NCBI GenBank assembly: GCA_029259115.1
Contig: JAPDJO010000005.1
Coordinates: 1-46,297, forward strand
Reading direction: 5' to 3'
DNA: 46,297 nucleotides
DNA from: Thermoplasmatota archaeon
Lineage (GTDB): Archaea; Thermoplasmatota; E2; DHVEG-1; B18-G2
The notes beneath the pieces are model-generated. The model worked only from the letters and a program-made list of their open reading frames with translations. It did not search any database and was not told where the DNA came from. Of the stretch, positions 16,835 through 44,778 are shown one piece after another. Both the position numbers and the translations under genes were made by a program. Each line of letters opens with the position of its first letter. The first letter of the stretch is position 1.

Positions 16835-16913
16835 AAACCTAATAATTTAGTTAGGATTTGTACTTATTCTAATAGATACCCAACATTTAAAAGGCACTAT
16901 GAATTATAACTTT

Positions 16914-17081
16914 ATGATTATGAGTAAAAGAAAAAGAATATACAATCCTGTTACTGGAAGATACTACACTATTAGACAGAGGACTACAAAGTTTGGTAGA
17001 AAGGGACAAATTAAAGGATTGTGGAAGCCACCAAAAAAGTTAATGAGAAAATCCTTAATCGATCTCATTTTGGGCAAATAG
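16914..17081 (+). CDS. Small basic protein upstream of a PIN nuclease
   Basis: 55 residues starting MIMSKRKRIYNPVTGRYY; TATA-like TTTAAAAG (16886-16893) lies about 25 bp before this ATG. ATG at 16920 is also possible. The protein is strongly basic (many Lys/Arg), with NPVTGRYYTIRQRT and GRKGQIKGLWKPPKK segments that resemble small proteins found near archaeal mobile genes, by memory only. It ends 4 bp before the PIN gene. It may be a DNA- or RNA-binding antitoxin-like partner, but no known antitoxin family is recognised. Confidence 0.5.
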   Translation: MIMSKRKRIYNPVTGRYYTIRQRTTKFGRKGQIKGLWKPPKKLMRKSLIDLILGK

Positions 17082-17085
17082 AGTT

Positions 17086-17691
17086 ATGAAAAAAGTATTT
17101 CTAGATTCCAACGTGATTGCAAATTGGATACTTATAAAGGACTTAAGCGAGAAGATAGATGAATTTAAGAATGAAAGGGTACTTAGGAGAAGATTTGAAA
17201 GTATAAGTTTTTCACACACCTTGATTGAAGCTCTCCTCTTTTCTGATAAATACAAGGTTGAAACTTCAAACTTGGCAATAGCTGAAGTCTACCATGTAAT
17301 CTACAATGAGATAATTTCTCTTAGGCTATATCGCAATGGAATTCCTTTGACTCTTTGGTCAAAGATGAGAGAAAAGCAGAAGTTAACAGAGGAGGACAAG
17401 TATCTGATAAGAGAAACAATCACAAGATACATTGGTGAGTTGGAAGAAAATGCAGACATTATAAACGATAAGATAGATCGAGAAGTATATCCAAAATTAG
17501 TCCTTGAATATGGGTTAAGAACACACGATGCTGTTTTACTAACAACTGCTATATTAGATAGATGTAGCTGGTTTATAACTAATGATAGGGAGATTGTAAG
17601 TTTATGCAAGAAGAAAAGGAAAACTCGGTTTTCAGAAATGTTCAAAATCGTTTTAGATCTCCCACAAAACTTCCTGCGTGTTGTGAAATAG
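17086..17691 (+). CDS. PIN-domain ribonuclease (VapC-like)
   Basis: 201 residues. MKKVFLDSNVIANWI contains the first PIN acidic residue (D7), IAEVYHVI the glutamate, and a third acidic site lies in THDAVLLTTAI followed by WFITNDREI with the last aspartate. PIN proteins are Mg2+-dependent RNases, often VapC toxins. It is longer than typical VapC (about 130) through an insert around 25-65 and a longer helical middle. The 4-bp gap to the small basic gene upstream suggests a two-gene unit. The toxin role is inferred. Confidence 0.75.
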   Translation: MKKVFLDSNVIANWILIKDLSEKIDEFKNERVLRRRFESISFSHTLIEALLFSDKYKVETSNLAIAEVYHVIYNEIISLRLYRNGIPLTLWSKMREKQKLTEEDKYLIRETITRYIGELEENADIINDKIDREVYPKLVLEYGLRTHDAVLLTTAILDRCSWFITNDREIVSLCKKKRKTRFSEMFKIVLDLPQNFLRVVK

Positions 17692-43698: not shown

Positions 43699-44778
43699 AT
43701 GGCAGTAGAAGAAAAGATACCCTCCATCAAGGAACTCCTCTCCGGTTATGATAAAAGTAATCTTGTAATCGCTACTATATGTTCCCATTCAAGTTTGCAG
43801 ATTTTCAACGGCGCGAGAAAGGAAGGTTTCAAAACCCTCGGTATAGGAATTGAGGACAGGATAAAGTTCTATGATGCATTTCCTCTGGGCAAACCGGATG
43901 AGTTTTTCCTTGTTGATAATTACAAAGATATTCCAAAGTATGTTGAGGAGCTAAGGGAAAAGAACGTTATCATTATTCCTCATGGCTCATTTGTTGAGTA
44001 TCTTGGTGCTGAAAACTTCTTGAAACTTGAGCTACCAACTTTTGGAAACAGAAGGGTGTTGATGTGGGAATCTGATAGAGATCTTGAGAGAAAATGGCTC
44101 GAGGGTGCTGGTTTGGATATGCCAAAGCAAATAAAGGATCCGAAGGATATCGATAGGCCTGTTATAGTGAAATACCATGGTGCAAAGGGAGGGAAGGGAT
44201 TTTTCATAGCCAAGACTTATGAGGAGTTTGAGAAACTCGTGGATTGGAGCAAACCTTTCACGATACAGGAATTCGTTATGGGGACGAGGTATTATCTGCA
44301 TTACTTCTATTCTCCGATAATCAATGAAGGTTACAGATTGAAGAAGGGCTCACTTCAGTTGCTTTCTATGGATAGAAGAGATGAGACGACTATAGATGAA
44401 CTTCAGAGAATTGGCTCGATCTCGGAGCTGGAAGAGATAGGTATACATCCAACCTTCGTTGTCACTGGTAACATACCGATAGTTATGAGAGAATCTCTGT
44501 TACCAGAGGTGTTCAGGATGGGAGAAAAGGTGGTCGAGAAATCCATTGAGCTGTTTGGTGGGATTATAGGGCCGTTCTGTCTGGAGACCGTGATAACAGA
44601 AGATCTCAAATTCAAGGTTTTTGAGATTTCTGCCAGAATTGTTGCTGGAACGAATCCTTATATATCTGGTTCGCCTTATTCTGACCTGATACAGCCAGAT
44701 TTATCAACTGGCAGAAGGATAGCCCAGGAGATTAAATATGCTCAAAAGCATGATCTGCTTGAAGAAATCCTGAGTTGA
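43699..44778 (+). CDS. purP: FAICAR synthetase PurP (formate-dependent)
   Basis: 359 residues, normal for PurP. Converts AICAR, formate and ATP to FAICAR in archaeal purine synthesis. SHSS with H30 near the start, IPHGSFVEYLG, KYHGAKGGKGFF (glycine-rich ATP loop), TGNIPIVMRESLLPEVF and FCLETV complete the ATP-grasp core; ARIVAGTNPYISG is the C-terminal part. This copy keeps the standard motifs, unlike the paralogue at 1021-2175. It is 4 bp upstream of nep1 and likely in one operon with it. Confidence 0.92.
   Translation: MAVEEKIPSIKELLSGYDKSNLVIATICSHSSLQIFNGARKEGFKTLGIGIEDRIKFYDAFPLGKPDEFFLVDNYKDIPKYVEELREKNVIIIPHGSFVEYLGAENFLKLELPTFGNRRVLMWESDRDLERKWLEGAGLDMPKQIKDPKDIDRPVIVKYHGAKGGKGFFIAKTYEEFEKLVDWSKPFTIQEFVMGTRYYLHYFYSPIINEGYRLKKGSLQLLSMDRRDETTIDELQRIGSISELEEIGIHPTFVVTGNIPIVMRESLLPEVFRMGEKVVEKSIELFGGIIGPFCLETVITEDLKFKVFEISARIVAGTNPYISGSPYSDLIQPDLSTGRRIAQEIKYAQKHDLLEEILS

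Follow-up and report, generated by a model that had tools for sequence, protein, structure and literature searches.

The question raised by this locus is whether a very small, strongly basic protein encoded directly upstream of a PIN-domain protein could be an antitoxin of a new kind. The gene pair lies at positions 16914 to 17691 of contig JAPDJO010000005.1 from a Thermoplasmatota archaeon (assembly GCA_029259115.1), of which the whole stretch of 46,297 nucleotides (nt) analyzed here is referred to as the window. Judged from the letters of this gene pair and its relatives, it is probably (at roughly 0.7) a type II toxin-antitoxin module whose antitoxin belongs to an undescribed family that swaps partners. 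The small protein looks like a member of such a family because its relatives precede two unrelated toxin types. A sequence-only reading of the window had raised the idea of a new antitoxin class, and this idea gained ground: the pair is kept across phyla, the small protein fits no known antitoxin family, and it also precedes Doc-type toxins.

Relatives of the small protein precede PIN and Doc-type genes

We sought the small-protein family by a genome scan, whole-genome searches, viral scans, and searches of plasmid and phage records, and we counted the 25 loci with a readable downstream gene. The family was found in archaea (Thermoplasmatota, DPANN, Altiarchaeales, and Thaumarchaeota), in Patescibacteria, and on viral contigs, and the search of archaeal genomes for the complete pair located it in the same four archaeal groups. 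Per phylum searched, 10/341, 5/380, 4/34, 2/300, and 3/29 genomes carry the family, counts that include a few weak or discarded matches; the family is accessory and patchily distributed. The plasmid and phage record collections gave one plasmid match only, and further viral scans added one small locus, L056, otherwise returning the viral contig already found.

The toxin-antitoxin-like layout that had been noticed in the window recurs, with the small gene followed by a PIN gene at 12 of the 25 loci. At the others, the next gene encodes a Fic/Doc protein (4 loci), an HNH protein (2), or no recognized toxin (7). At every locus with a PIN or Doc partner, the small gene comes first and on the same strand, with spacers of −28 to +23 nt, mostly −1 to +10 nt. 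The PIN-paired copies are those of the window, L008 (DPANN), L009 (Altiarchaeales; PIN gene cut by the contig end), L010 (G068) and L020 (G075) from the same class as the window, L011 (Thaumarchaeota UBA164), the archaeal L050 (G757) and L061 (G1060), L048 (G606) and L049 (G365) from the phylum of a Peregrinibacteria locus, L036 on a viral contig, and L035 (G110), whose small-protein match is weak (E 4e-4). Two of these PIN genes have disturbed frames: that of L010 (4168-4751) is frameshifted, and that of L011 (4144-4795) has its start disturbed near an A-run; both may reflect sequencing error or inactivation of the toxin.

Fic/Doc-paired copies are of the Patescibacteria type (L015, L018, L046, and the truncated L047). 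Their partners match Pfam Fic and NCBIfam DOC_P1, some below the cut-off, and the motif HYFxNGNKR is invariant at all four loci, in agreement with the Doc-type motif HxFx(D/N)xNKR. An HNH gene is next at L016 and on the phage contig L056, and no recognized toxin is next at L012, L013, L014, L017, L033, L044, and L051. Among the latter, L013 (3989-4132) and L014 (2522-2653), from G214 and G180, are tail-less solo genes at the same position in one Thermoplasmatota family, and L044 (3191-3313 of NZ_LT607757.1, Methanobacterium congolense plasmid II) is a 40-residue member in a stretch without listed genes. At L017 (3995-4815), a protein with apparent C-terminal membrane segments begins a few bases past the small gene and is possibly a third kind of partner. 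The weak matches in G010 (L034) and G843 (L053) were attributed to chance and discarded, each being contained in a long frame with no relation to the family (a transporter open reading frame and a 646-residue frame, respectively). A match in G1084 (L062), at a contig edge and with a membrane segment, was left out of the counts.

At an assumed rate of 2% PIN genes, well above that of the window genome with its only two PF01850 matches, the binomial probability of 12 PIN-followed loci among 25 is ∼2e-14, so the pairing is more than chance; the loci behind this figure are non-independent, and the separate associations are those with three groups of PINs, with one further singleton PIN, and with Doc. 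By BLAST and tree, group a comprises the PINs of the window, L008, L020, and L003, group b those of L011, L050, and L061, and group c those of L048, L036, and L035, while L049 stands apart, nearest to group c. As a control, we inspected 18 weaker PIN matches from the same phylum, mostly of the short VapC type. Many of these have an RHH- or AbrB-like gene directly ahead, and a member of the small-protein family takes that place in none of the 18. Readable window-type PINs, by comparison, mostly keep the small gene: it is present at the window, G075, G068, L008, and L009. The window-type PIN of G045 (31% identity) has a different small gene upstream, and that of G002 is cut by the contig start.

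Organization of the gene pair in the window

The module consists of the following elements.

16920..17081, plus strand: small basic protein of 53 amino acids, proposed antitoxin, with homologues at 25 readable loci
17086..17691, plus strand: PIN-domain protein of 201 amino acids with a long insert, proposed VapC-like ribonuclease (RNase) toxin, on the basis of Pfam PF01850 and the likeness of the L008 model to VapC structures
16886..16892, plus strand: TTTAAAA, inferred TATA-like element for a two-gene transcript, read from sequence ∼30 nt before the start

Of the original description, a 55-residue basic gene that has a TATA element and lies 4 bp ahead of a 201-residue PIN gene, the pair, the spacing, and the TATA-like sequence stand, and the start needs correction. 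Initiation at ATG 16914 would give 55 residues (MIMSKRK...), but the homologues favor ATG 16920 and a product of 53 residues (MSKRKRIYNP...). Four nucleotides separate the stop codon of the small gene (17079-17081) from the PIN ATG (17086). A TATA-like layout (ATTTAAAA...ATG) is also found ahead of the L010 copy in G068.

Upstream, the module is flanked by genes for the proteasome beta subunit (psmB) and aCPSF1, and on the other side by a tRNA-Asn gene, accompanied by Dim2-like KH and Rio1 genes on the opposite strand (neighbor identities were read from sequence). The sister species G002 shows the same order of PIN, tRNA-Asn, and KH genes at a contig edge, with a PIN 61% identical to that of the window, so the module has been kept in place within the genus. 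We looked for a repeat marking an integration site around the module beside the tRNA-Asn gene and found none. Elsewhere in the window, two paralogous PurP-like ATP-grasp open reading frames were read at 1021-2292 and 43699-44778.

A conserved basic core and a tail that follows the partner

The 53-residue protein contains 17 K/R residues versus 1 D/E and has an isoelectric point (pI) of 11.7. Alignment reveals a core of ∼35 residues common to all family members, followed by a variable tail.

16920..17024, plus strand: conserved core, residues 1-35 (RIYNPVTGRYYTIRQRTT..GRKGQIKGLW), proposed nucleic-acid-binding part, defined by the alignment, with modeled strands E6-9, E14-23, and E26-34
17025..17078, plus strand: C-terminal tail, residues 36-53 (KPPKKLMRKSLIDLILGK), proposed toxin-binding segment, as the tail tracks partner type; predicted helix 39-51

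AlphaFold predicts three strands and a C-terminal helix for the window protein, with a predicted local distance difference test score (pLDDT) of 80 and a predicted template modeling score of 0.48; the four other models score 64-68. Structure comparison gave no convincing neighbor in the PDB for this model, and searches of NCBIfam, PHROGs, PADLOC, and PDB returned nothing for the family. In Pfam, there were only scattered, mostly subthreshold matches of single members to unrelated families. The remark that the small protein does not resemble VapB-type antitoxins (AbrB, RHH, Phd) holds beyond the window: neither the window protein nor any of 23 members matches the known VapB families (AbrB, RHH, Phd, HTH, and others). 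Neither was there a match to the Phd/YefM domain among the family members searched or to the Panacea domain among the 23 members.

Tails found with group a PINs read SLIDLILGK, TLYEIVFGD, SLLDIILE, SLLEVVLGR, and TLLDIVLGR, those with two of the three group b PINs read KKWSW and KKWIW, and those with Doc partners read NFGDVIRKLS, NYSIVVKRLG, and KFGPVIKKLG. In short, LLDIVLGR-like tails go with window-type PINs and FGxVIKKL-like tails with Doc, and in several solo copies the tail is short or missing. In a permutation test by partner type, the within-minus-between similarity was 0.29 for tails and 0.14 for cores (p ∼2e-4 for both). The link to partner type is thus tighter for tails than for cores, as a correlation and not as functional proof, because the labels are phylogenetically structured.

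The PIN protein resembles VapC

The window PIN passes the Pfam PF01850 model (27.1 bits versus a cut-off of 23.6) and reaches ∼200 residues because of an insert. Four acidic residues are invariant in two alignments, one of them of 12 PIN relatives.

17104..17106, plus strand: catalytic Asp D7
17284..17286, plus strand: catalytic Glu E67
17527..17529, plus strand: catalytic Asp D148
17584..17586, plus strand: catalytic Asp D167

For a fused AlphaFold model of the small protein and the PIN from L008, the best PDB matches were the VapC proteins PAE0151 and PAE2754 (E<1e-3), followed by a weaker match to Mycobacterium tuberculosis VapBC11. By way of this homologue, the PIN protein is predicted to have the VapC tertiary fold. 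PIN fold and catalytic residues are thus both present, and we infer RNase activity and toxicity. Searches of Pfam and NCBIfam up to E 10 brought up neither a HARP nor a PIN_5 model.

Copies in restriction loci and on a phage contig

In G068 (L092), the pair is flanked by genes for an N6 methylase and for HsdS, in the order hsdM-small-PIN-hsdS, and in G757 (L091) the order is hsdM-GmrSD-small-PIN-hsdS. These two type I restriction-modification copies carry PINs of two different groups. A related long PIN in G004 (L093, 1395-3575) has a type IIG-like methylase fragment on one side and brxL on the other, and its upstream gene encodes another, 63-residue very basic protein. The small genes ahead of the G045 and G004 PINs were compared with the family by profile and rejected as members (probability 1.9% and 0.4%, respectively). 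Basic small genes that are not detectably related lie upstream of the long PINs of G045 (L003/L019), G004, and G040 (L069), and perhaps also of G033 (L024/L070); the long PIN of G144 has an acidic neighbor and that of G192 none. Long PINs may have a broader range of basic partners.

On the phage contig L056 (3001-3174, IMGVR_UViG_3300022871_000047), which has a terminase-like gene, the small gene has a Doc-type tail and core. No Doc gene lies within the stretch read around it, and an HNH gene is next; the small gene is possibly a toxin-less antitoxin serving counter-defense.

Proposed mechanism and alternative explanations

In the mechanism that we propose, the downstream PIN protein would act as a VapC-like RNase toxin and the upstream 53-residue basic protein as its antitoxin, a role suggested by position, coupling, and partner swapping. 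Its hydrophobic C-terminal helix would dock on the toxin and block it, and the basic, beta-rich core would hold nucleic acid, either the promoter (autoregulation) or RNA. In evolution, the core has swapped tail and partner, coming to serve at least three PIN subfamilies and Doc. Element maintenance or defense is the probable use, because restriction or BrxL loci house some of the copies. A bolder version, which we put forward tentatively and consider rather doubtful as a whole, is an antitoxin family of ∼50 residues in archaea and Patescibacteria whose exchangeable tails neutralize several PIN subfamilies and Doc, which serves as an RNase guard in restriction and BrxL loci, and which phages carry as a toxin-less counter-defense gene.

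Several observations weigh against a toxin-antitoxin module. It would be unusual for an antitoxin to be so positively charged and yet to lack any known DNA-binding fold, and operator palindromes were seen at single loci only (L009, L020, and L046), none being shared across loci. Seven of the 25 copies have no recognized adjacent toxin and two have an HNH gene instead, and the orthologous solo genes L013 and L014 suggest that some members have a separate function. In the fused AlphaFold model, the small part reaches a pLDDT of only 47-70, so that the model supports no interface.

The very high positive charge, the conserved core, and the solo copies with retained L013/L014 synteny would also fit an independent nucleic-acid-binding role, in which the small protein is no inhibitor but a targeting subunit that binds RNA or the ribosome and brings PIN to rRNA or tRNA and Doc to EF-Tu. 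The known targets of VapC and Doc toxins indeed belong to the translation machinery, according to literature cited in PMC10440598. We nevertheless regard a targeting role as unlikely, as position and coupling are antitoxin-like, the partner-specific tails resemble neutralizing segments, and a phage-borne Doc-type small gene without Doc fits counter-defense better. Still less probable is that a small gene with an unrelated function moves about and often settles beside toxin genes without forming a functional pair. Nine of 25 copies do lack a PIN or Doc neighbor, and L036, L044, L051, and L056 are mobile or viral loci, but next to PIN or Doc the small gene is without exception the first of the two and in the same orientation, with a gap that is usually no more than 10 nt. 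Five window-type PINs in three archaeal groups have moreover kept the same partner, and the tails correlate with partner type.

Small cationic peptides can be toxic, and with a pI of 11.7 the peptide might itself be the harmful component, controlled by the PIN, for example through cleavage of its mRNA. Such a reversal of roles is very improbable, given that the same peptide also pairs with Doc, a non-nuclease, that solo copies are stably kept, and that the PIN protein has kept an intact, VapC-like active site. We attach just as little weight to a housekeeping RNase (a protein-only RNase P/HARP-like or an rRNA-processing PIN) with an accessory protein, even though the neighbors are informational genes (psmB and aCPSF1 upstream) and the position of PIN, tRNA-Asn, and KH protein is kept in G002. 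The sequence-only reading had offered such a guided housekeeping enzyme as its second option, which is disfavored because the distribution is patchy (only 4/59 relatives have the PIN) and no HARP or PIN_5 model matches; restriction loci and a viral contig also harbor homologues.

If a toxin-antitoxin module is indeed what the pair represents, it would bear on how such systems are annotated in archaea and ultra-small bacteria, where annotation relies on recognizing known antitoxin families. The family would be too short and divergent for present models, and many PIN and Doc genes would be listed as solitary nucleases or as Fic proteins. Partner change by antitoxins could moreover be studied on a minimal example, a core of 50 residues that acts with toxins of unrelated structure, and the restriction-locus and phage copies make a role in defense or counter-defense directly testable.

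Comparison with known systems

We found no description of the small-protein family in the open-access literature, although an earlier listing by NetFlax is possible: that work used RefSeq proteomes and includes several small antitoxins for PIN toxins (PMC10440598). Makarova et al. regarded the conserved pairing of a small gene with a known toxin gene in one operon as a strong indication that the small gene encodes an antitoxin (PMC2701414). None of the families described there, namely, the PIN-associated COG2442, COG2880, COG1753, and truncated MerR and the helical YhfG found with Fic, matches the small protein by family search or description.

With VapBC, the window pair shares an antitoxin-first two-gene operon and a PIN toxin with four acidic residues and, in the model, the VapC fold. 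It differs in that its proposed antitoxin is very basic and lies outside the VapB families and in that its PIN is ∼70 residues longer owing to the insert. HARP is likewise an archaeal PIN protein with a helical insert, whereas the window PIN has no HARP/PIN_5 match, is patchily distributed, has a partner gene, and gives VapC-like structural matches. The likeness to Phd-Doc lies in the Patescibacteria relatives with their Doc-family partner (HxFxNGNKR) and in a short antitoxin whose C-terminal tail is specific for the toxin. Phd, too, pairs with other toxins, PIN and RelE (PMC2701414), but the family described here has no Phd/YefM match, and its core is a different, beta-rich basic peptide. YhfG, predicted as the partner of Fic in PMC2701414, is a small antitoxin candidate upstream of Fic/Doc that, by its description, likewise carries much positive charge. 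In contrast to our family, which combines beta strands with one helix, occurs in archaea and Patescibacteria with PIN and Doc, and has no Pfam family, YhfG was characterized there as an alpha-helical protein of enterobacteria that goes with Fic. A parallel in behavior is offered by the promiscuous antitoxins of Panacea (PMC8832971) and NetFlax (PMC10440598), two studies that establish partner swapping. In both cases, one core is combined with exchanged toxin partners, PIN and Doc among them, but our family does so without a Panacea domain and with only ∼50 residues.
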